NCBI GenBank assembly: GCA_012511175.1
Contig: JAAZGO010000035.1
Location: 1-43,030 of the forward strand
DNA from: Fastidiosipila sp.
Lineage (GTDB): Bacteria; Bacillota; Clostridia; Saccharofermentanales; DTU023
Length of the DNA: 43,030 nucleotides
Direction of reading: 5' to 3'
This document shows positions 2,088-39,411 of this stretch, one piece after another. The stretch's first letter is position 1; each line of letters begins with the position of its first letter. Position numbers and translations under genes: made by a program. Below the pieces are notes generated by a model. It saw only the letters and a program-made list of their open reading frames with translations, had not been told where the DNA came from and ran no database searches.

Positions 2088-3449
2088 CTATTTGAGCTGA
2101 AAGAGCGCTTCACGTACGATTTCGCAGACCGTGGGATGAGGGAAAACGGTCCGCTTCATGGCATCCAGGGACATTTTCTGTTCGATCATAATCCCGAAGG
2201 CCAGGATCATCTCAGAGGCGTAGGGGGTCAGCAGATGGCAGCCCAGAAGCACCTTGCTTTCCTGGTCGAAGAGCAGTCTGCAAAGACCGGTACCGCGCTC
2301 CGTTTCCGCCTGATAGCGACCGGACCAGCCCATGGGAATCTCGACTTCCAGGTAAGCGCAGCCCTGGGCTTCCAGTTCTTCTTTTGTTTTCCCGACACCG
2401 GCCACTTCCGGGTCGGTATAGATGACTGAAGGTATGGCGCAGTTGGACATGCGGTCGTCGATTCCCAGCATGTGATTGACAGCCACTTCGCCTTCCCGGC
2501 TGGCCGCATGCGCCAGCATGAATCCGCCGACCACATCTCCGATGGCGTAGACCCCGGGGCAGCTTGTCTCCATCTGCTCATTGACCACTATGGCTCCCCG
2601 GTTTACAGCTACGGGCAGCTGTTCCAGACCAAAACCGGAGGTGACAGGCCGCCTTCCACAGGATAAGAGGATGATGTCTCCGGACTCTTGATGCTCCGCG
2701 CCATCTTTCTCAAAGAATACCGTTCCGCCATCGACGCGGGTGACACAGGCCGAAAGGTGGAAAACCATGCCAAGATTCTCGTAAACTTGCTGCAGACGGC
2801 GGCCAATTTCAGAATCGATGGTGCCTGCGATATGATCCAGCATTTCCACGACCACGACCTGTGAGCCTACAGCCTGGTAATAACAGGCCATCTCCAGACC
2901 GATGACACCGCCCCCGATGACAACCAGCCTTTGAGGGATTTCTTCCAGGTCAAGGATCTCACGGTTGGTGATCACCGTCTTGCCCAGTCCTTCACGAATA
3001 CCTGGGAGGGGGAGAATAACGGGTTCGGAACCCGTTGCGATCATGAGATTCCTGCCTTCGTAAAGCTCTTTGTCCGCTTGAACCCGAAAGGGATCTCCTT
3101 CCCGGGGGAGAATCATGGCCATTTGATTGATGACTTCGACGCCAGCTTCATTCATCTGATTCCTAATGCCGGCCACCAGTCTTCGGACCACCTTCTTTTT
3201 TCGCTTGATCACGGTCAGCTGATCGTAGGAAACTGCCTCGGCCTTGATCCCGAAAGCCGCACTGTCCACGGCATGCCTGTAGAGTTTGGCTGAGTTCAGC
3301 AGAGCCTTGGAAGGAATGCAGCCTTCGTTCAGGCAGACACCTCCCAGGTTTTCCTTTTCAAAGAGGGCAACGGAAAGGCCTGCCCGTCCAGCACGTTCAG
3401 CGGCGACATAACCACCGGGGCCTGCCCCGATAATAATAAGATCGTACAT
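2088..3449 (-). CDS. lpdA: Dihydrolipoyl dehydrogenase (E3)
   Basis: FAD-dependent disulfide oxidoreductase that reoxidises dihydrolipoamide on E2 or GcvH using NAD+. It is 453 aa, a typical length. The FAD-binding GAGPGG is at 8-13, the redox-active pair Cys39/Cys44 is in GGVCLNEGCIPSK, a second Rossmann motif (VVIGGGVIGLE) lies mid-protein, and the C-terminal catalytic pair His438/Glu443 is in HPTVCE. The ATG at 3449 has AAAGGAG upstream. No E1, E2 or glycine-cleavage genes are adjacent, so the partner complex cannot be told from this window. LplA at 13907-14989 could lipoylate it. A possible -10 box (TATAGT on the minus strand, near 3494) lies in the leader. Confidence 0.95.
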   Translation of the reverse strand: MYDLIIIGAGPGGYVAAERAGRAGLSVALFEKENLGGVCLNEGCIPSKALLNSAKLYRHAVDSAAFGIKAEAVSYDQLTVIKRKKKVVRRLVAGIRNQMNEAGVEVINQMAMILPREGDPFRVQADKELYEGRNLMIATGSEPVILPLPGIREGLGKTVITNREILDLEEIPQRLVVIGGGVIGLEMACYYQAVGSQVVVVEMLDHIAGTIDSEIGRRLQQVYENLGMVFHLSACVTRVDGGTVFFEKDGAEHQESGDIILLSCGRRPVTSGFGLEQLPVAVNRGAIVVNEQMETSCPGVYAIGDVVGGFMLAHAASREGEVAVNHMLGIDDRMSNCAIPSVIYTDPEVAGVGKTKEELEAQGCAYLEVEIPMGWSGRYQAETERGTGLCRLLFDQESKVLLGCHLLTPYASEMILAFGIMIEQKMSLDAMKRTVFPHPTVCEIVREALFQLK

Positions 3450-3510
3450 GGTTTACTCCTTTTGTCATGGCTGTTTTGATCCTGAATTACTATAACAGAC
3501 CCCCGGGCAT

Positions 3511-3540
3511 AAAAAAGCCCGCCGGTCCAAACCGGCGGGC
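3511..3540 (-). terminator. Rho-independent terminator of the nucleoside ABC operon
   Basis: A perfect 10-bp GC-rich stem (3517-3526 with 3531-3540) with a 4-nt loop is followed, on the minus strand, by six T residues (3516-3511). It lies 22 bp after the stop codon of the last permease gene and upstream of lpdA, so it separates the two transcription units. Confidence 0.93.
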
Positions 3541-3561
3541 CTGACATGAGATGTGCCGGAA

Positions 3562-4536
3562 TCAACGCTCCTCCCGGAAATAGTTCAAGCCGGTGCCAGC
3601 GGGCTGCGCGTGTTCCTTGATCTGCATCATGCTGGTGATGATGAGGACAATAATGGTGGCGATGTAGGGAAACATGCGGTAAATCGGTACAGGCAGGCCC
3701 TTGATGGGAACGTACATGTACATGACGCTGAGGCCGCCGAATATGATGGCGCAGTAGATGGCCCGGAGGGGATTCCAGGTCGCGAAAATTACAAGCGCGA
3801 TGGCAAGCCAGCCGTAGCCGCTGATGCAGTCATGAACCCAGATGCCCTTTTGGTCCACCATGGACATGTACATGCCGCCCAGGCCACACAGGCCGCCTCC
3901 AACCAGCGCTGCCAGGTAACGGTAGCGCGTGACGTTGATGCCGGCGCTGTCTGCCGTCGCCGGGCTTTCTCCGACTGCCCTCAGCGACAGGCCTTTTCTG
4001 GTCCTTCTTAAAAACCAGCCCATCAGGATGGCAATGGCCAGGGCCAGGTAGACCAGCCAGTTGTATTTGAAGAAAAGTGTTCCGATAACAGGGATTTCCG
4101 CCAGTTTGCCAAAATTAATCCGCCCGTACATGGCCTTGGTCTGGTCGTTGACCGTCACGTAGCCGCCGGCTTTGTGGCCCAGCACTTCCCCGAAAAACTT
4201 GCCAAATCCTGTTCCGAAGATGGTCAGGGTCAGGCCGGTGACATTCTGATTGGCCCGGAGGGAGACGGTCAGCACGGCATAGATCAAGCCGCCAAGCGCT
4301 CCGCATAGAAAAGCGAAAATGAAGGCGAAGACCGCCGCCAGCAAGCCGCCCTGGCCGAACCACTGCTCGACATACCAGGCACCGGCCAGACCCGCGATGG
4401 CCCCCATGTACATCATGCCCTCAACACCCAGGTTAAGGCTGCCTGACTTTTCCGTCAGGATTTCCCCGCAGGTGGCAAGCAGGAGCGGTGTACCGGCCAG
4501 AACAGCCGCATTGAGGAGATTGATAAGGGGATTCAT
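3562..4536 (-). CDS. ABC transporter permease, BMP/nucleoside-type (NupQ/YufQ-like)
   Basis: Inner-membrane permease of the BPD_transp_2 (branched-chain/ribose) family, 324 aa, with about eight to ten hydrophobic helices. The early ATCGEILTEKSGSLNLGVEG segment and the later TRKGLSLRAVGESPATADSAG cytoplasmic loop are characteristic of the permease pairs that work with BMP-family lipoproteins. It is the last gene of the importer operon and overlaps the upstream permease by 4 bp (ATGA), indicating translational coupling. GAGGTG precedes the ATG. Substrate by family is purine nucleosides. The exact substrate is inferred from the operon. Confidence 0.9.
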   Translation of the reverse strand: MNPLINLLNAAVLAGTPLLLATCGEILTEKSGSLNLGVEGMMYMGAIAGLAGAWYVEQWFGQGGLLAAVFAFIFAFLCGALGGLIYAVLTVSLRANQNVTGLTLTIFGTGFGKFFGEVLGHKAGGYVTVNDQTKAMYGRINFGKLAEIPVIGTLFFKYNWLVYLALAIAILMGWFLRRTRKGLSLRAVGESPATADSAGINVTRYRYLAALVGGGLCGLGGMYMSMVDQKGIWVHDCISGYGWLAIALVIFATWNPLRAIYCAIIFGGLSVMYMYVPIKGLPVPIYRMFPYIATIIVLIITSMMQIKEHAQPAGTGLNYFREER

Positions 4537-25167: not shown

Positions 25168-26598
25168 TTAAAGACTGCCAATCGTTTCCCGGATCATGGA
25201 TTCGGCCAAAATGGGATTGGCTCTGCCACCCGTTTCTTTCATGACACCGCCAATCAGTGAACGCATGGCGCTGTCCTTTCCCTTGAGGAAATCCCTGACC
25301 GCGCGCTCATTGGAAGCGACCGACCGCTCAACTGCCGGCCGCAGTTTTTCTTTGTCGTTGATCTGAGCCAGCTCGTGTTCCTCGATGTAGGAAGCCGGAT
25401 CGAAGTCTTCTTCCATCAAAGCCTTGAGCACTTGCCTGCCCGTGTTGCTGTTGATCTCGCCCTTGGCCAGCAGGTCTGCCAGTTTTCCCAGACTGACGGG
25501 GTTCAGCAGGTCGTCTGTCGTGTCCTCGGTGTAAAGAGGCGCGACATCCGCCAGGATCAGGTTGACCAGGGTTTTTGGATTGGAAGTGACTGCAACTGCT
25601 TTTTCGAAGAAGTCAGACAACTCCTTGTCGTCAGTCATCCGTTCGGCTTCATAGGCTGTCAGGCCGTAATCTTCCATGTACTGCGCCTTTCGCTCGTCCG
25701 CAAGTCTGGGGATGACGGCACGGATTCTTTCGATTTCCGCTGCTCCGACTTCGACCGGAACCAGGTCCGGGTCGGGGAAATAGCGGTAATCGGCAGCTTC
25801 CTCTTTTTTCCGCATGGAGGAGGTCTGACCTGTTTTTTCATCAAAACGTCGGGTTTCCTGGGTGATGGTGCCGCCTTCTTCAAGCAGTGCGACCTGGCGT
25901 TTGAATTCGCTCTCGATGGCCCGGGCCACAAAGTTGAAAGAGTTCAAGTTTTTCAGTTCAACCCGGGTGCCCAGAGTCTGGTCACCCTTTTTCCGGACCG
26001 ACAGGTTGACGTCGCAACGGAGTGAACCCTCATTCATCTTGCCGTCGGAGATGCCTGTATAGCGTGCCATGGCCCGAAGCTTGCGCAGGTAGGCGACGGC
26101 TTCATCGCCGCTCCGCAGATCGGGTTCCGAGACGATTTCGATCAGGGGAACTCCGCAGCGGTTGCAATCGACCAGGGTGCCCTGGCCGGCAAGATGGATC
26201 AGTTTGCCGGCATCCTCCTCAACATGGATGCGGGCAATACGAATGCGTTTGCTTTCATCCCCCGACAAGATATCCAGGTAGCCGTCGGTGCAGAGAGGGA
26301 AGTCATTCTGGGTGATCTGGTAAGCCTTGGGCAGGTCGGGGTAAAAGTAATTTTTCCGGTCGAATCGCGACCAGGGTTCAATTGAGCAGTGGGTTGCCAG
26401 CCCGGCCCGGATGGCGAACTCCACCACTTCCCGGTTCAGGGCGGGAAGCGCACCGGGCATGGCCAGGCAGACGGGGCAGACCTGAGTATTGGGCGGCGCT
26501 CCGAAGGTGGTGGCACAGTTGCAAAAAAGCTTGTGCTCTGTCTTCAGCTCAATGTGGACTTCAAGGCCAATAACAGACTCGTAATCCGCGTAGTTCAT
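25168..26598 (-). CDS. gatB: Asp/Glu-tRNA amidotransferase subunit B
   Basis: Kinase/tRNA-binding subunit of GatCAB, 476 aa. It phosphorylates the side-chain carboxylate of misacylated Asp-tRNA(Asn) or Glu-tRNA(Gln), then the ammonia from GatA amidates it. Motifs include IGLEVHIELKTEHKLFC and VCPVCLAMPGALP (cysteines of the zinc site), RKNYFYPDLPKAYQITQ, and the C-terminal YqeY-like helical domain that holds tRNA. ATG 26598 overlaps the gatA stop by 4 bp and has GGAGGTG upstream inside gatA. It is the last gene of the aspS-gatC, gatA, gatB operon. Confidence 0.97.
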   Translation of the reverse strand: MNYADYESVIGLEVHIELKTEHKLFCNCATTFGAPPNTQVCPVCLAMPGALPALNREVVEFAIRAGLATHCSIEPWSRFDRKNYFYPDLPKAYQITQNDFPLCTDGYLDILSGDESKRIRIARIHVEEDAGKLIHLAGQGTLVDCNRCGVPLIEIVSEPDLRSGDEAVAYLRKLRAMARYTGISDGKMNEGSLRCDVNLSVRKKGDQTLGTRVELKNLNSFNFVARAIESEFKRQVALLEEGGTITQETRRFDEKTGQTSSMRKKEEAADYRYFPDPDLVPVEVGAAEIERIRAVIPRLADERKAQYMEDYGLTAYEAERMTDDKELSDFFEKAVAVTSNPKTLVNLILADVAPLYTEDTTDDLLNPVSLGKLADLLAKGEINSNTGRQVLKALMEEDFDPASYIEEHELAQINDKEKLRPAVERSVASNERAVRDFLKGKDSAMRSLIGGVMKETGGRANPILAESMIRETIGSL

Positions 26599-28067
26599 GG
26601 CGTCACCTCCGGCGCGGCGGGAATGAGGCCGTGCGCATCTTCGTAAAGAGCGGCCAGCTGGTAAAGCAGGCTTTCCGAGAAAGGTTTTCCCATGAGTTGC
26701 ATGCCAACCGGCAGACCCTGTCCGGTCAGGCCCAGGGGCACGGAAAGAGCAGGCATACCGGTCAGGGAAGCGGGGAGAGTGAAGCGGTCATTGCTGTACT
26801 TGCTTCCTCCCAGCTCTTCAGGCAGGCTGCCCAAAGGCCATGCCGGCGTTGCCGTGACCGGGGTCAGGATGGCCTGGCAGGTCTGAAAGACCTTTTTGAA
26901 CTCCTCCATAACGAGGGAACGCGCCTGAGCTGCCTTATAAAAATAATCGCGGTAGTTGTCTTCGGAGAGGGTGAAGGAGCCCAGGAGGATGCGTTGCTTA
27001 ACTTCAGGGCCCAGAGCCTCGGAACGGGACCTGGTATAGACATCCTCCAGGTTTTCCTCACCCTGGCTGCGATAGCCAAAGTGGATGCCATCATAGCGGT
27101 TCATGGCCGAAAAGCCTTCAGCACTGGAAAGAATGTAATAAGCGGCAAGGGAGGCATCAAGGGTTTTCAGGTCGACCGGAATGATCCTAAGCCCCTGGCT
27201 TTCATAGAAGCGGAGCGCCTTCTCAAGAAGATCATGCACTTGGGGGTCCAGGTCATCGGATGCAAAATAGGATTCCGGCCAGCCGATTGTCAGCTGAGCG
27301 GGCACCTCCCCGATGGCATCCAGGAAGGAACCACCCTGCCGGTCAAGGCTGTGAACATCCTTTCTGTCCCGGACCGCAATGGCGTCCAGGACCAGGGCAT
27401 TGTCCCTCACGCTCCTGGTCATGGGGCCCACCTGGTCGAGCGAGGCGGCGAAGGCTGTAACACCGCGTCTTGAGACCAGGCCATAGGTCGGACGGAGGCC
27501 GACAAGGCCGCAGAGGGCAGCGGGCTGGCGGATGGACCCGCCCGTGTCTGAGCCCAGGGTGAAACAGGCTTCGCCCGAGGCGACCGCCGCCGCAGAACCG
27601 CCGGAACTCCCGCCGGGAACACGTGTCAGATCGTAGGGATTGCGTGTCGGATGGAAAGCAGAGCTTTCGGTCGAATGGCCCATGGCGAACTCATCCATAT
27701 TGGTTTTCCCTAAAAGCACCATTTCCTGCTGCCTCAGGAGCCGCCAGACAAAGGCATCATAGGGGGGAATGAAATCTTTCATCATTCGGGAGGCATTGGT
27801 TGTCGGGATCCCGCGTGTCGCGATATTATCCTTAAGCGCGCCCGGAATACCTGCGAGCGGAGGAAGTTGAAGTCCCCCGGCGATCAGCTGATCGACCCGG
27901 TCCGCCTGCTTTAAGGCAGATTCGCGGGTCAGCGTGATGTAAGCGCCAATCCTGTCTTCGCCCTGATCAATAGTCCTGAAGACGGCTTCAGCCAGCTCAC
28001 GGGCCGAAAAGTCGCGGCTTCTCAAAGCCCCGGCTATTTGTGTCAATTCCATCTTTCGATAATCCAT
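26595..28067 (-). CDS. gatA: Asp/Glu-tRNA amidotransferase subunit A
   Basis: Glutamine-hydrolysing amidase subunit of GatCAB, 490 aa. The Ser-cisSer-Lys triad is intact: Lys79 in PGALKDN, Ser154 in PGGSSGGSAAAV and Ser178 in SDTGGSIRQPA, the same numbering that I recall for the Staphylococcus aureus enzyme. It releases ammonia that is channelled to GatB. ATG 28067 is chosen because GGGAGAG lies directly upstream, 10 bp after the end of the aspS-gatC frame; the longer frame before it overlaps gatC and lacks support. The stop overlaps the gatB start. Confidence 0.96.
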   Translation of the reverse strand: MDYRKMELTQIAGALRSRDFSARELAEAVFRTIDQGEDRIGAYITLTRESALKQADRVDQLIAGGLQLPPLAGIPGALKDNIATRGIPTTNASRMMKDFIPPYDAFVWRLLRQQEMVLLGKTNMDEFAMGHSTESSAFHPTRNPYDLTRVPGGSSGGSAAAVASGEACFTLGSDTGGSIRQPAALCGLVGLRPTYGLVSRRGVTAFAASLDQVGPMTRSVRDNALVLDAIAVRDRKDVHSLDRQGGSFLDAIGEVPAQLTIGWPESYFASDDLDPQVHDLLEKALRFYESQGLRIIPVDLKTLDASLAAYYILSSAEGFSAMNRYDGIHFGYRSQGEENLEDVYTRSRSEALGPEVKQRILLGSFTLSEDNYRDYFYKAAQARSLVMEEFKKVFQTCQAILTPVTATPAWPLGSLPEELGGSKYSNDRFTLPASLTGMPALSVPLGLTGQGLPVGMQLMGKPFSESLLYQLAALYEDAHGLIPAAPEVTP

Positions 28068-28077
28068 TTGCTCTCCC

Positions 28078-30171
28078 TCACTCGACCACCGGGGGTACGA
28101 GAAAGAAACCATCCTGCTCCGCCGGCGCACTTTGGAAAATTTCCTCCCTGGTAGGCGGTCGGTCATCTGCTTCCGTCAGGTGGACATTGCGGGCAGCTGA
28201 CGGCGAGTAGAGAGGTGGCACATCCCTGGTATCAATTGAGTCAAGCGCATCAGCCAGTGCGATCAGCTCCCGAAGCTGGCGGCGTGTTTCTTCTTCCTCT
28301 GGCGCGGTCAGCCGGAGCCGGGACTGGGCTTCCAGTTTTTTAAGGTCAATCTCGCGGATCCGCTCTTGCCTGCCCGGCCGGGCAGGATCCCGTGAAACGG
28401 GGCTGTCATCGCCGGCCAGCTGGATCCCCAATTCCACCAGTTGTTGGGGATCGACTGGGGAAGGGGCTTCTGTCATGGGGTCGGAAGCATCCTTTGTTTT
28501 GGGAAAAGCAATCACATCGCGCAAAGAAGGCCGGCCTGCCAGAATCATGACCAGCCTGTCGAGGCCAAAAGCAAATCCGCCGTGGGGAGGTGCCCCATAC
28601 TGGAAGGCCTTCAGCATGAAACCGAACCGCTCTTGAATATCTTTGTCAGACAGGCCCAGCGTCTTGAAAACCTGCGTCTGGATATCTTTGCGGTGGATCC
28701 TGATACTGCCCGAGCCCAGTTCTGTCCCGTTCAGGACCAAATCGTAGGCCTGGGACCGGACACGGGCGGGGTCCGTTGAAAGAAAGTCCAGGTCCTCCGC
28801 GAAGGGCATGGTGAAGGGATGATGCTGGGCCAGATAGCGGCCTTCCTCCGAAGAGAACTCGAACATGGGGAAGTCGGTGATGAAAGCGAAAGCAAAGCGG
28901 CCGGGTTCCCGGAGGCCCAGAAGGTCAGCCAGCCGGAGCCTTAATGTGCCTGTCACGCGGCGTGAAAGGTCAAGCGGGCCAGCGGAGAAAAGGACGAAGT
29001 CACCCGGCGAGGCTGAAACCTGGCGCAGGATCTCCTCGATTTGCTCCGGGTCAATAAACTTGGTCAGGATGGAATAGATCTCTCCCGAGGAACGCCAGGC
29101 AATCCAGGCCATGCCACCGGCTCCCTCGGCGAGGGCATGCCCGGTCAGTTCCTCAATGGTTGTACGTGAGAAGTCAGCCTGCCCGGGAACTGTGATGGCG
29201 CGGACGACGCCTCCCTCTGCAACAGCCTGGGAAAAGACGGAAAAACCAGTCTGGCCGGCGATCTCTGTGATGTCGACGATAGGAAGATCAAAGCGCAGAT
29301 CCGGCTTGTCCGTACCGTACCGGTCCATGGCCTCCTCCCAGCTCAGCCGGGGGAAGGGTTTGGGAAACTCCGCACCCACCACTTCCTTCATGACTTGCCG
29401 GAAAAGGGATTCCAACAAAAGTATGACGTCTTCCTTCTCCACGAAGGACATCTCAAGGTCCAGCTGGGTAAATTCAGGCTGGCGGTCAGCCCGCAGGTCT
29501 TCGTCTCTGAAACAGCGGGCAATCTGGTAGTAGCGGTCAAATCCTGAAACCATCAGGAGCTGCTTGAAGAGCTGAGGTGATTGGGGAAGCGCGTAAAATG
29601 AGCCCGGGTGAACCCGGCTTGGAACCAGGTAATCCCGGGCGCCTTCCGGTGTGCTTTTAGTCAGGAGGGGGGTCTCGATATCAACAAAGCCCTCCTGATC
29701 CATGAAACGCCGTATAGCTCCTGTCACCTGATGGCGGAAGCGGATGTTGTCACGAAGCTGCGGCCTGCGCAGATCGAGAAAACGGTAAGCCAGGCGCAGT
29801 TCCTCTCTGACATGGTCAGCATCTGAAGGATCAAAAGGGAGCGGGTCACAGTGCGCAAGCAGCTGGGCTTCCCTCACGCGAAGCTCGACTGTACCCGTGG
29901 CAATTTTTGGATTGACGGTTTCTTCTTCCCTCAGGTGGACGACTCCCCTGACGAGCAGGACCGACTGATTGCGGACCTGCTCAGCAAGCTCAAAGGACTT
30001 GGCTGTCGTGTATTCAGGGTTGAAGACCGCCTGAAGCACGCCCTCACGGTCAGAAACATCGACAAAAATCACCCCGCCCATGTCGCGCTTGGTGTCGACC
30101 CAGCCGCAAGCGGTTGCCTCCCGGCCCACATCACGCTCTGAAAATAAACCGCAGTATTCTGTTCGTTCCAT
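28078..30171 (-). CDS. aspS: Aspartyl-tRNA synthetase fused to GatC (AspRS-GatC)
   Basis: A 697-aa fusion. Residues 1-about 587 are a complete bacterial AspRS: OB-fold anticodon domain (CGWVDTKRDMGG, 22-33), class II motif 2 RCFRDEDLRADRQPEF (219-234), GAD insertion domain, motif 3 GLDRLVMILAG (from 536), and the normal end LVELGIQLAG. A 17-residue linker (about 588-604) leads to a full GatC (605-697), with AQSRLRLTAPEEEE, LDSIDTRDVPP and the C-terminal DGFFLVPPVVE. GatC normally is a separate ~95-aa subunit bridging GatA and GatB. No internal ATG/GTG/TTG with a binding site precedes the GatC part, so one polypeptide is expected. gatA begins 10 bp later. Residue 31, which is His in some non-discriminating and Leu in discriminating AspRS, is Met here. 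ATG 30171 fits the family start. Confidence 0.93.
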   Translation of the reverse strand: MERTEYCGLFSERDVGREATACGWVDTKRDMGGVIFVDVSDREGVLQAVFNPEYTTAKSFELAEQVRNQSVLLVRGVVHLREEETVNPKIATGTVELRVREAQLLAHCDPLPFDPSDADHVREELRLAYRFLDLRRPQLRDNIRFRHQVTGAIRRFMDQEGFVDIETPLLTKSTPEGARDYLVPSRVHPGSFYALPQSPQLFKQLLMVSGFDRYYQIARCFRDEDLRADRQPEFTQLDLEMSFVEKEDVILLLESLFRQVMKEVVGAEFPKPFPRLSWEEAMDRYGTDKPDLRFDLPIVDITEIAGQTGFSVFSQAVAEGGVVRAITVPGQADFSRTTIEELTGHALAEGAGGMAWIAWRSSGEIYSILTKFIDPEQIEEILRQVSASPGDFVLFSAGPLDLSRRVTGTLRLRLADLLGLREPGRFAFAFITDFPMFEFSSEEGRYLAQHHPFTMPFAEDLDFLSTDPARVRSQAYDLVLNGTELGSGSIRIHRKDIQTQVFKTLGLSDKDIQERFGFMLKAFQYGAPPHGGFAFGLDRLVMILAGRPSLRDVIAFPKTKDASDPMTEAPSPVDPQQLVELGIQLAGDDSPVSRDPARPGRQERIREIDLKKLEAQSRLRLTAPEEEETRRQLRELIALADALDSIDTRDVPPLYSPSAARNVHLTEADDRPPTREEIFQSAPAEQDGFFLVPPVVE
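28369..28386. repeat. 18-bp perfect palindrome in the AspRS-GatC linker
   Basis: CCTGCCCGGCCGGGCAGG is a perfect 9+9 palindrome. In the reading frame it encodes the linker residues PARPGR between AspRS and GatC. GGATCC lies on both sides (28357-28362 and 28385-28390). Its position at the domain junction suggests a fusion scar or an RNA hairpin between the two coding parts; that role is inferred. Confidence 0.6.
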
Positions 30172-30294
30172 ATGACCGTTCCCATCTCCCGGAAGGCAGG
30201 TGTGATCAGCGTGTTGCGAGCACACAAAAACAGACCCATGCTCCGGCAATTGCCTGTATTTTATCATACCGGGCCCTGGCGGATCAGGCGATAA

Positions 30295-36193: not shown

Positions 36194-37267
36194 ATGTACA
36201 AAAAACTTTTTATTCCGGGGCCAACAGATGTCACGCCCGAGGTACTGGAGAAAATGGCTACGCCCATGATCGGGCATCGCACGAAAGAGGCGACAGCGCT
36301 CCAGCAAAGTGCATCTGAAAAACTTCAAAAACTCATGTATACAGAAAATACCATCCTCTTGTCCACCTCGTCGGGGACCGGCCTGATGGAGGGTTCCATC
36401 CGCAGCTGCACGCTTAAGAAGGCGGCTGTTTTCTCCGTTGGGGCCTTTGGTGACCGCTGGTATGATCTGGCTGAACAAAACGGGGTGCCGGCCGATATCT
36501 TCCGGTCCGAACCGGGCCAGCCGACGACACCTGAAATGGTTGATCAGGCCTTGAGCACGGGTGACTACGACGTGGTTACCGTAACCCACAATGAGACCAG
36601 CTCTGGCATCGTCAACCCCTGTGCGGAGATCGGCGAAGTGATCCGGAAGTACCCCGGTGTCCTTTACCTGGTCGATGCGGTCTCTTCCCTGGGAGGCGCC
36701 AAAATTGAGGTCGACAAATGGGGGATTGATGTCTGCATCGCGTCGACACAGAAGTGCCTGGCGCTGCCTCCGGGGCTCAGTCTCTGCTCCGTGTCGGAGA
36801 GGGCAATTGAAGCGGCCAAACAGGTTGAAAAACGCGGTTATTATCTTGACCTGGTCCGCCTTTACAAGCGGGTGAAAAAAGATTACCAATATCCCTCCAC
36901 ACCCTCGTTGTCGCACATGTTTGCCCTTGATTACCAACTGGACCGGATTCTTGAGGAGGGTCTGGACAACCGTTTTGACCGTCACCAGAGGCTGGCGGAG
37001 ATAGTCAGGGCCTGGGCGGAAAAACACTTTTCGCTTTTTGCCAAAGAGGGCTTCCGCTCCAATACCGTGACCTGCATCAACAATGAAGATGCCTTTGTCT
37101 TTGCCGATCTGAGCAGTGCCTTGCTGGAACGTGGTTTCCGGATCGGAAGCGGTTACGGGCCTTTCAAGGCCACTACCTTCCGGATCGCGACCATGGGAGA
37201 ACTGCAGGAGGAGACTTTGCGCGAGCTCCTGGCAAATATTGATGAAATTCTGGGACTGGAGGCATAA
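36194..37267 (+). CDS. Class V aminotransferase, probable phosphoserine aminotransferase
   Basis: A 357-aa PLP enzyme related to alanine-glyoxylate/serine-pyruvate aminotransferases. Motifs include FIPGPTDVTPEVLEKMATPMIGHR (shown in part: FIPGPTDV, IGHR), the Schiff-base lysine in ASTQKCLALPPG (Lys187) and a LVDAVSSLGG strand (PLP aspartate). Because serA follows directly 2 bp downstream, its likely job is 3-phosphohydroxypyruvate to phosphoserine rather than a glyoxylate reaction. This is inferred from context, since the sequence is of the PucG/AGT rather than classic SerC type. ATG 36194 has AAGGAGGAGG upstream. It starts a serine operon. Confidence 0.85.
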   Translation: MYKKLFIPGPTDVTPEVLEKMATPMIGHRTKEATALQQSASEKLQKLMYTENTILLSTSSGTGLMEGSIRSCTLKKAAVFSVGAFGDRWYDLAEQNGVPADIFRSEPGQPTTPEMVDQALSTGDYDVVTVTHNETSSGIVNPCAEIGEVIRKYPGVLYLVDAVSSLGGAKIEVDKWGIDVCIASTQKCLALPPGLSLCSVSERAIEAAKQVEKRGYYLDLVRLYKRVKKDYQYPSTPSLSHMFALDYQLDRILEEGLDNRFDRHQRLAEIVRAWAEKHFSLFAKEGFRSNTVTCINNEDAFVFADLSSALLERGFRIGSGYGPFKATTFRIATMGELQEETLRELLANIDEILGLEA

Positions 37268-37269
37268 AG

Positions 37270-38166
37270 ATGGCATTGATTTTGGCCAATGATGGCATTG
37301 ATAAAAAAGCTGAACTTAAGCTGATCGAACTCGGCCATGAAGTCGACACAAAAAAATATGAGGGGGAGGATCTGCTGAAAAGACTTGGTGAAGTGGATTG
37401 CGTAATCGTCAGAAGTGCGACCAAGATCCGCGATCCCCAGGTCGATGCCGGAGCGTCAGGCAAACTGAAGCTGATCATCCGCGGCGGCGTGGGACTTGAC
37501 AACATCAATGTCGACTATGCTGAATCCAGGGGCATCAAGGTGCGCAACACGCCAGCCGCTTCGAGCAGTGCCGTAGCCGAGTTGGCGCTTGGCCACATGT
37601 TGACCATGGCCCGCCACATCGGAGAGGCCAATGTCACCATGCGGCAGGGCAAGTGGCTGAAAAAAGAATACTCCGGGACGGAGATCGCCGGCAAGAAATT
37701 GGGCCTCATCGGGTTTGGCCGGATCGGCAACTCACTGGCTGTCAAATGCCTGGCCCTTGGCATGGAGGTCATGTTCACCGATATCCAGGATTTGGAGTGT
37801 GACATCTGCCCCCAGGTCAAATTCGATCAGGTGCTGGCTGAGTCAGATTATGTTTCCATCCACATTCCTTTTGAAGGCGGCGCCCCGCTGATCGGGAAAA
37901 AGGAAATCGACCGGATGAAAGACGGGGTCTTCATCATCAACTGTGCCAGGGGCGGGATTGTAGACGAAGATGCCCTGGTTGATGCCATCGAAGCGGGCAA
38001 GGTGCGCGGGGCTGCCCTGGATGTTTTCCGGGAGGAGCCTCTGACCAACCAGCGCCTGCTCCAGTGCGACAAAATTTCGCTGACTCCGCACATCGGCGCT
38101 GCGACGGCTGAAGCCCAGGCACGGATCGGCGACGTGATCGTCGATATTGTCAAGGAGATCCTGTAA
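37270..38166 (+). CDS. serA: Short-form D-3-phosphoglycerate dehydrogenase
   Basis: NAD-dependent enzyme that oxidises 3-phosphoglycerate in the first step of serine synthesis, 298 aa. The NAD-binding GFGRIGNSLAVKC is mid-protein; catalytic residues are the Arg in NCARGGIVDE, a Glu about 28 residues on, and His in LTPHIGAAT. No C-terminal ACT or ASB domain is present, so feedback by serine as in the long form is not expected. Other 2-hydroxyacid dehydrogenases are possible, but context favours SerA. ATG follows GGAGG, 2 bp after the aminotransferase stop. Confidence 0.9.
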   Translation: MALILANDGIDKKAELKLIELGHEVDTKKYEGEDLLKRLGEVDCVIVRSATKIRDPQVDAGASGKLKLIIRGGVGLDNINVDYAESRGIKVRNTPAASSSAVAELALGHMLTMARHIGEANVTMRQGKWLKKEYSGTEIAGKKLGLIGFGRIGNSLAVKCLALGMEVMFTDIQDLECDICPQVKFDQVLAESDYVSIHIPFEGGAPLIGKKEIDRMKDGVFIINCARGGIVDEDALVDAIEAGKVRGAALDVFREEPLTNQRLLQCDKISLTPHIGAATAEAQARIGDVIVDIVKEIL

Positions 38167-39411
38167 ATGGCGGTAGTAAGACCTTTCAGGGCCGTACGCC
38201 CCCTTCCCAGTCTGGCTGAACAGATCGCCAGCTTGCCTTATGATGTCATGGACCGGGCGGAAGCCAAAGCCATGGCAGGGAACAATGAGTTAAGTTTTCT
38301 TCACGTAGTGCGGGCAGAAATTGACCTGCCCGATTCGGTCGATGATTATGCGGACCAGGTCTACGAAAAAGGATGTCAGCGTTTGCGCCGGATGATGGCG
38401 GACGGCGTCCTGGTTCAGGATCAGCAGCCTTTCTTCTACATCTACCGGCAGATCATGAAGGGCCGCGTCCAGACAGGTCTGGTTGCGACCTTTTCAGTCG
38501 ATGAATACCTGTCCAACAAGATTAAGAAACACGAGTTCACCCGCAAGGAGAAAGAAGTGGACAGAACACGCCATTTCGACACCTGCGATGCCCATACGGA
38601 GCCCGTTTTCCTGACTTACAGGTGGCAGGAGGCCATCGACCGGCTGATCGCCGACTTTATCAAATTCACGGAACCCGTCTACGATTTCAAGACGGAAGAC
38701 CAGATCACTCACATTTTCTGGGTTCTGGATGATCCTGAAACTATTTCCCAGTTGGAATCACTTTTTGCCGGGATCCCCTCGCTTTACATCGCCGATGGCC
38801 ATCACCGCTCGGCTGTGTCCGCCAATGTAGCGCTGAAGAGGCGGGAAGAGTATCCCGATGCGCCTGCTGATGCTGAATTCAATTATTTCATGGCCGTTGT
38901 CTTCCCGGACCAGGATCTCTTCATCATGGACTACAACCGTCTGGTCAAAGACTTGAATGGCATGACACCCGCGGAGTTCCTGGAAAGGATTGGCGGGATT
39001 TACCAGGTTGAGCGGGTGAACCAGGCTTTCCATCCTCACCGGAAAGCGGAGATGTGCATGTATCTGGATGGCAGCTGGTACAAGCTGACCGCTCCCCCCT
39101 CTCTTTTTGAGGGCCTGGATCCGGTCCGCCGGCTCGATGTTTCGATTTTGCAGGACAATGTTCTGACGCCCCTGCTCGATATCGACGACCCCAGAACCTC
39201 CATGCGAATTGACTTCGTTGGCGGCATCCGGGGGCTTGACGAGCTGAAGCGCCGCGTTGATGCTGGCTGGGCCGCAGCCTTTGCCATGTGCCCGACTACC
39301 ATGGATGACCTGCTGGCCATTGCGGACGCGGAAATGGTCATGCCGCCAAAATCGACCTGGTTTGAACCCAAACTGAGGTCGGGGCTTTTCGTCCACCTGC
39401 TTTCCAACTGA
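38167..39411 (+). CDS. DUF1015 family protein, serine-cluster partner
   Basis: A 414-aa soluble protein of DUF1015 (COG4198). Family landmarks are AVVRPFRAVRP near the N-terminus, LPYDVMDRAEAKAM, HEFTRKEKEVDRTRHF, the motif ADGHHRSAVSANVA (209-222) and a C-terminal cap region. DUF1015 proteins commonly lie beside serA and serC in anaerobes. The DGHHR motif resembles the ParB/SerK-type kinase signature, so a role in phosphoserine or serine metabolism (kinase or phosphatase) is plausible but unproven. The ATG touches the serA stop codon, and AAGGAG lies inside serA, so expression is coupled. Confidence 0.85.
   Translation: MAVVRPFRAVRPLPSLAEQIASLPYDVMDRAEAKAMAGNNELSFLHVVRAEIDLPDSVDDYADQVYEKGCQRLRRMMADGVLVQDQQPFFYIYRQIMKGRVQTGLVATFSVDEYLSNKIKKHEFTRKEKEVDRTRHFDTCDAHTEPVFLTYRWQEAIDRLIADFIKFTEPVYDFKTEDQITHIFWVLDDPETISQLESLFAGIPSLYIADGHHRSAVSANVALKRREEYPDAPADAEFNYFMAVVFPDQDLFIMDYNRLVKDLNGMTPAEFLERIGGIYQVERVNQAFHPHRKAEMCMYLDGSWYKLTAPPSLFEGLDPVRRLDVSILQDNVLTPLLDIDDPRTSMRIDFVGGIRGLDELKRRVDAGWAAAFAMCPTTMDDLLAIADAEMVMPPKSTWFEPKLRSGLFVHLLSN

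Follow-up and report, generated by a model that had tools for sequence, protein, structure and literature searches.

The closest described relatives of the protein reported here are the free serine kinase SerK (TK0378 of Thermococcus; PDB entries including 5x0b) and SbnI (PDB 5ujd, 5uje, and 6nr6), proteins of ∼240 residues whose substrate pair is serine and phosphoserine. In some archaea, serK adjoins serA and an aminotransferase gene (PMC5120207). The textbook enzyme that makes serine from phosphoserine is SerB, a HAD phosphatase (family model TIGR00338). How bacteria with SerA and SerC finish serine without a recognizable SerB is a published gap, noted for Desulfovibrio vulgaris (PMC5764234), Clostridium perfringens and Enterococcus faecalis (PMC7311316), Dehalobacter (PMC4751268), and Caldithrix abyssi (PMC5317091). 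Here we analyzed a contig of 43,030 nucleotides from Fastidiosipila sp. (JAAZGO010000035.1; the window is this whole stretch), in which a protein of the family DUF1015 is encoded on the plus strand at the end of a three-gene cluster (36194-39411), after a class V aminotransferase and a short SerA-like dehydrogenase. Our in silico results on fold, motifs, synteny, replacement at the serB locus in a class-level genome sample, and serine-type regulation of related operons lead us to predict that, where SerB is missing, the phosphorylated serine pathway is probably finished by DUF1015 proteins of the window type (subfamily A), which would convert O-phosphoserine to serine.

Other alternative phosphatases have been described: SerB2 (PF00300, Hydrogenobacter-related), SerB3 (“YseA” as printed), and SerB4 (HAD), of which SerB2 and SerB4 were proposed from genome context; 450 gut genomes were listed without any of the four SerB types (PMC9026213). 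DUF1015 is neither a histidine phosphatase, as SerB2 is, nor a HAD protein, as SerB4 is, and it is not named among the alternative phosphatases in the passages of that paper that we consulted. With SerB it has in common the proposed reaction, the genomic slot in the class sample described below, and the pathway partners, whereas family and fold differ. Our literature search, which left most subscription literature outside, found no publication linking DUF1015 with serine or with a missing SerB. The order serC, NAD(P)-binding protein, DUF1015 has been noted in two Porphyromonas species, with no function given (PMC11316588).

What does the structure of DUF1015 say about its activity? The AlphaFold model of the window protein (predicted local distance difference test [pLDDT] score, 93.8) matched nine PDB entries at E ≤ 0.001 (Foldseek E values, 6e-7 to 4e-5): five of SerK, three of SbnI, and 1vk1, a Pyrococcus protein entitled “conserved hypothetical” that by its sequence is a close SerK homologue. 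Structural alignment of DUF1015 with these nine entries gave Z scores of 11.8 to 13.5 over 214 to 225 residues (root mean square deviation, 4.1 to 5.7), and no other chain reached Z ≥ 2 among the 994 from Foldseek’s list that were re-aligned. The match begins only at DUF1015 residue 88 to 97 in six of the nine alignments, and DUF1015 has 414 residues compared to ∼240 in SerK and SbnI. Against the family model PF06245, the window protein scored 369.8 bits (gathering score, 25.8) over model positions 1 to 325 of 325; no HAD family appeared among its Pfam or NCBIfam matches. A fragment from the C terminus of one subfamily B protein, used as a query, returned nothing useful.

To compare motifs, we aligned 30 DUF1015 sequences with 39 to 87% identity to the window protein. 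Invariant in this alignment, among many residues, were PYDV, IKKHE.T, KE.DR, ADGHHR, YNR, and MPPKSTWFEPKL. The preliminary description of this DNA had placed ADGHHR at residues 209 to 214 and had related it to the DGHHR signature of SerK-type enzymes; the position was confirmed, the motif was identical in 30/30 sequences, and the relation to SerK is upheld by the common fold together with the shared HE and DGHHR motifs, which follow each other in the same order in both proteins. We divided the family into subfamily A (at least 38% identity to the window protein) and a divergent subfamily B (20 to 30%). H122 and E123 were invariant in the 30 aligned sequences and in 105/105 subfamily A loci, in which D210 to R214 were likewise kept. 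Among the 72 subfamily B loci, 71 kept E123 and 70 kept R214, with the consensus LPHEET and IADGHHR; loci filed under subfamily B are L153 to L225 plus L087, L095, L101, L102, L107, L112, and L117. In the SerK chains, E30, which is changed to Q in 5x0j and to A in 5x0e, is the glutamate of KPHE, and DGHHR occupies positions 69 to 73. The equivalence of E123 with SerK E30 is drawn from motif and order, and the distance from E123 to D210 is 87 residues compared to 39 in SerK. ADGHHR is likely the phosphate-binding loop of the ParB/SerK fold. A second ParB-type family was seen beside DUF1015 in one locus, where a ParBc_2 (PF08857) protein lies directly 3′ (L064, 6357-7355, plus strand).

The genes before DUF1015 in the window probably belong to the same pathway. 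The three open reading frames (ORFs) have the coordinates given in Table 1, with gaps of 2 bp (aminotransferase to SerA) and 0 bp (SerA to DUF1015), in agreement with the spacing noted earlier, and no phosphatase gene lies within the cluster. The top NCBIfam match of the short SerA was phosphoglycerate dehydrogenase (TIGR01327) at 299.7 bits, below the cut-off of 454; the match covers positions 6 to 301 of 525, and the C-terminal part of the full-length enzyme is missing. A PF00266 phosphoserine aminotransferase, SerC3, has been predicted as an operon partner of serA in Clostridium, among others (PMC9026213), and because of this the window aminotransferase is probably of the SerC3 type, converting phosphohydroxypyruvate to phosphoserine. 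The order aminotransferase-SerA-DUF1015 recurs in relatives down to ∼50% protein identity; the arrangement is therefore not due to chance. SerA and/or a class V aminotransferase was found near DUF1015 in 22 of the 34 named loci (the SerA match in L030 and L032 is just 29 to 33%), and a canonical SerC lies directly upstream of DUF1015 or one gene off in L032, L036, and L044. DUF1015 of either subfamily is present in 99 of 199 genomes sampled from the own phylum. Of 100 further loci from there, 27 are of subfamily A, and in 24 of these SerA and/or an aminotransferase is encoded on the DUF1015 strand at most four genes away (exceptions: L142, L144, and L148). A different setting was seen in L060, L061, L063, and L065, where the gene directly before DUF1015 encodes a response-regulator protein, which in three cases carries an Hpt domain as well; no SerB was found at E ≤ 1e-20 and no serine gene was seen beside DUF1015 in these four.

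The preliminary description had also reported no serB in the cluster. This absence extends to the rest of the source genome (1.706 Mb in 42 contigs, 97.68% complete, one DUF1015 copy), in which no protein exceeded the TIGR00338 cut-off of 144.15 bits; the best match reached 32.4 bits (PF00300 histidine phosphatases were not searched). We considered HAD proteins of the source genome as a hidden SerB and rejected them: the best PF12710 match, a 210-amino-acid HAD protein adjoining a RuBisCO-like protein, reads by this neighbor as MtnX of methionine salvage, and two others appear by eye to be phosphoglycolate phosphatase/PpaX-like. The missing SerB is not peculiar to this genome, because none of the 199 own-phylum genomes has SerB over the cut-off (seven have weak matches at E ≤ 1e-15); for the same reason, we dropped its absence from the source genome as evidence in itself. 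Since the own phylum is without canonical SerB, we moved the test of mutual exclusion to samples in which SerB is frequent, those around L040/G199.

The first of these, the class sample, comprised 387 genomes around L040, taken as Alphaproteobacteria, with a SerB threshold of E ≤ 1e-20. DUF1015 was found in 37 genomes and SerB in 241, with no overlap: SerB occurs in 0/37 genomes with DUF1015 and in 241/350 of the others (Fisher P = 9e-18, uncorrected for kinship). The exclusion has a counterpart at the level of the locus. In L040, the gene order is ilvB(−) miaA(−) DUF1015(+) degP(−) hflC(−) hflK(−), and L084 is identical except that SerB(+) stands in the DUF1015 slot. DUF1015 adjoins miaA and/or degP in 25 of the 37 loci and is flanked directly by both in 15. 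This is the usual serB site in the class sample: serB adjoins miaA and/or degP in 10 of 11 class-sample serB loci read (8/8 in one set, plus L071 and L074 but not L072) and in 9/20 serB loci taken from the wider phylum sample, those three included. In the class sample, DUF1015 thus takes the place of serB both in genome content and at the locus; exceptions, with both genes, were met in the wider phylum sample and in two control genomes.

Did this replacement happen once? Among the 25 DUF1015 genes at the miaA/degP site, 12 have the orientation of serB and 13 the opposite one, with no mixing within supported branches of the DUF1015 tree (a quick tree with SH-aLRT support only and some long branches). 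In L052 and L109, class-sample genomes of 0.9 Mb, DUF1015 is nested inside Bacteroidota, which suggests gene transfer into lineages without SerB. Because the two orientations keep to separate branches and L052 and L109 nest in Bacteroidota, serB was likely replaced more than once, and the 37 genomes are not 37 events.

The class sample also bears on whether DUF1015 is an enzyme at all. A ParB-like protein could be an accessory or regulatory sensor, for example of phosphoserine or a nucleotide, with some other, unrecognized phosphatase making serine: ParB-type folds serve as switches too (PMC12704722), the source genome holds HAD proteins, and SerB coexists with DUF1015 in some genomes outside the class sample. 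We regard a sensor as improbable, since DUF1015 occupies the serB slot itself and since H, E, D, R, and K are frequent among its invariant residues, as would suit an enzyme. The distribution of full-length SerA also speaks against a sensor: SerA over the cut-off was found in 18/20 SerB genomes picked from the 241 and in 20/37 DUF1015 genomes, but in 0/13 genomes with neither (13 of 109 tested).

We then asked how the DUF1015 operons are regulated. An Rfam scan of 79 loci revealed T-box leaders in five, with seven elements, each upstream of aminotransferase-SerA: two each in Clostridium ragsdalei (L021) and C. ljungdahlii (L024), and one each in C. magnum (L029), L128, and L160. DUF1015 is the third gene in all of these but L128; L160 is of subfamily B, and the other three are of subfamily A. 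At what we take to be the specifier position, the triplet after GAA, all seven elements read UCC, a serine codon. On an operon for serine synthesis, a serine T-box is to be expected. Upstream of the window cluster, no T-box or riboswitch was found at Rfam gathering scores, and a promoter/terminator scan gave consensus matches of 9/12 at most, with none directly before the cluster. COG4198 is presumably DUF1015. Glycine riboswitches, reported in 2007 upstream of COG4198 genes on metagenome fragments of presumed Firmicutes origin (PMC2211319), were not among the elements detected in the scan of the 79 loci.

The direction of the reaction is what separates our proposal from a kinase working forward, in which phosphoserine would go to cysteine or, with SerA and the aminotransferase reversed, to 3-phosphoglycerate. 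The fold and motifs are those of the serine kinases SerK and SbnI, serK near serA and an aminotransferase gene in Desulfurococcales has been read as serine assimilation (PMC5120207), and a kinase could coexist with SerB, as DUF1015 does in some genomes. A kinase would, on the other hand, be an unexpected stand-in for a phosphatase, and DUF1015 sits at the serB locus and never co-occurs with SerB in the class sample; the serine-type T-boxes that precede the operon in four loci fit synthesis. A forward kinase is hence an unlikely role for DUF1015, whose contexts, in contrast to the kinase reading of SerK, point to serine production.

If DUF1015 is the phosphoserine-to-serine enzyme, the window operon would be complete: SerA would yield phosphohydroxypyruvate, the class V aminotransferase phosphoserine, and DUF1015, with the fold and motifs of a free serine kinase running toward serine, the final product. 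We infer the reaction and the serine/phosphoserine pair, its direction in the source organism, the catalytic roles, and the phosphate acceptor. The DGHHR loop and nearby invariant K and R residues may hold the phosphate, and E123, the counterpart of SerK E30, may be the general acid that protonates the serine oxygen while the phosphoryl group leaves. The acceptor would preferably be water, then inorganic phosphate (making pyrophosphate), and then a nucleotide. Phosphoserine is a low-energy ester, so that transfer to a nucleotide is strongly uphill, whereas transfer to phosphate is less so and could be driven by pyrophosphatase, and hydrolysis is easiest; because of these energetics, hydrolysis or transfer to phosphate is likelier than the reversible ADP-dependent reaction that had been suggested at first.

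A phosphotransferase, by which phosphoserine and inorganic phosphate would give serine and pyrophosphate, or AMP or ADP would be raised to ADP or ATP, differs from the enzyme proposed here only in its acceptor, and we count its chances within those of our proposal. The SerK site transfers between serine and nucleotide (PDB titles name SerK with phosphoserine and AMP), subfamily A has many invariant residues besides the two motifs, and the arginine of GxxR, whose replacement abolished the binding of nucleotides by ParB-fold proteins in published tests (PMC12704722), is that of GHHR here. The uphill transfer to a nucleotide speaks against it, as does the finding that SerK did not use pyrophosphate or ATP (PMC5120207), and we hold transfer to be possible but rather unlikely. 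A pyrophosphate-dependent serine kinase may have been described; none turned up in our literature search. A survey of ParB-type folds names “DU1015” as a fused domain among the proteins chosen for nucleotide-binding tests, with no result by name in the section on these tests (PMC12704722). It is rather unlikely that many anaerobes, instead of using an irreversible phosphatase, have turned the serine kinase fold round into a reversible, energy-saving phosphotransfer to phosphate or nucleotide and that this phosphotransferase replaced serB at its locus more than once.

Several of our results weigh against DUF1015 as the enzyme replacing SerB. Neither phmmer nor profile searches found sequence homology between DUF1015 and SerK or SbnI in the PDB at E ≤ 10, and for this reason we did not class DUF1015 as a SerK. 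In a wider phylum sample of 249 genomes, SerB was found in 189/207 genomes without DUF1015 and in only 8/42 with it, which is in line with exclusion; the eight, however, tell against plain replacement (G219, G227, G235, G246, G254, G274, G302, and G414), since they have both genes. Five both-gene genomes (L046 to L050) form one tree branch, with DUF1015 and SerB within 3 kb on opposite strands; the two genes are by coordinates ∼14 and ∼88 kb apart in G246 and G274, and G414 (L057) has a divergent DUF1015 plus SerB. Two of three DUF1015 control genomes, Bacteroides ihuae and Methanosarcina acetivorans, have SerB over the cut-off, and DUF1015 is present in three of the seven own-phylum genomes with a weak SerB-like match (G040, G105, and G131). 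Because some genomes carry both, DUF1015 is not everywhere a plain substitute for SerB. In favor of replacement, none of 12 DUF1015 genomes chosen from diverse phyla has SerB over the cut-off, though nine have weaker HAD matches (E ≤ 1e-5; best, 105.5 bits).

Further points of this kind concern context. In the class sample, 12 of the 37 DUF1015 genes adjoin neither miaA nor degP; a SerA-like gene is near in five of these (all subfamily B), and neither feature was found in seven. No SerA match at E ≤ 1e-60 was found in six of the 37 genomes. Of 73 own-phylum subfamily B loci, 9 have the aminotransferase and SerA, 55 have neither, and 9 were not scored; the role of subfamily B may be other or wider. 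T-boxes are absent from the other 74 of the 79 loci, the genome counts of the different samples are not independent, and HAD proteins of the source genome, or phosphatases of the PF00300 type, might moonlight in this step. One computational table files DUF1015 under “electron transport chain” (PMC12828279); we did not follow this role, given in a single line.

With these points set against the fold, the HE and DGHHR motifs, the position at the serB locus, the lack of co-occurrence with SerB in the class sample, and the serine T-boxes of four loci, the first proposal that DUF1015 takes the final step from phosphoserine to serine is well supported in silico and very probably right.

Elsewhere in the window, an aspartyl-tRNA synthetase ORF with a C-terminal GatC domain (PF02686, residues 653 to 724; 28078-30267, minus strand) lies next to ORFs of the same orientation that, by eye, come after it and look like GatA and GatB (within 25168-28166). 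This would be a tRNA amidation cluster that begins with a gene fusion.

Table 1. Features of the DUF1015 cluster in the window and T-box elements of related loci
Feature	Position	Strand or locus	Basis
Class V aminotransferase (PF00266, 3.2e-25)	36194..37267	+	ORF, 357 aa, Pfam
Short SerA-like 3-phosphoglycerate dehydrogenase	37270..38166	+	ORF, 298 aa, PF02826 (3e-52), PF00389
DUF1015 protein (PF06245, subfamily A), 414 aa	38167..39411	+	ORF, Pfam, AlphaFold, PDB matches
H122-E123-F124-T125 of DUF1015	38530..38541	+	H122 E123 correspond to H29 E30 of SerK by motif and order
A-D-G-H-H-R, residues 209-214 of DUF1015	38791..38808	+	Invariant; DGHHR also in SerK chains
M-P-P-K-S-T-W-F-E-P-K-L, residues 392-403, DUF1015 C-terminal motif	39340..39375	+	12/12 columns invariant in 30/30 sequences
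Tandem T-boxes reading UCC before aminotransferase-SerA-DUF1015	3388-3860	L021 and L024	Rfam

The proposed role of DUF1015 very probably reaches far beyond the source genome, in many bacteria without the textbook enzyme. Named genomes of Clostridium and Enterococcus, as well as a Caldithrix metagenome-assembled genome, encode subfamily A proteins; these three genera also occur in the papers that describe the SerB gap. If our prediction is true, false calls of serine auxotrophy would be corrected, and a kinase fold would be shown to serve a phosphatase step.

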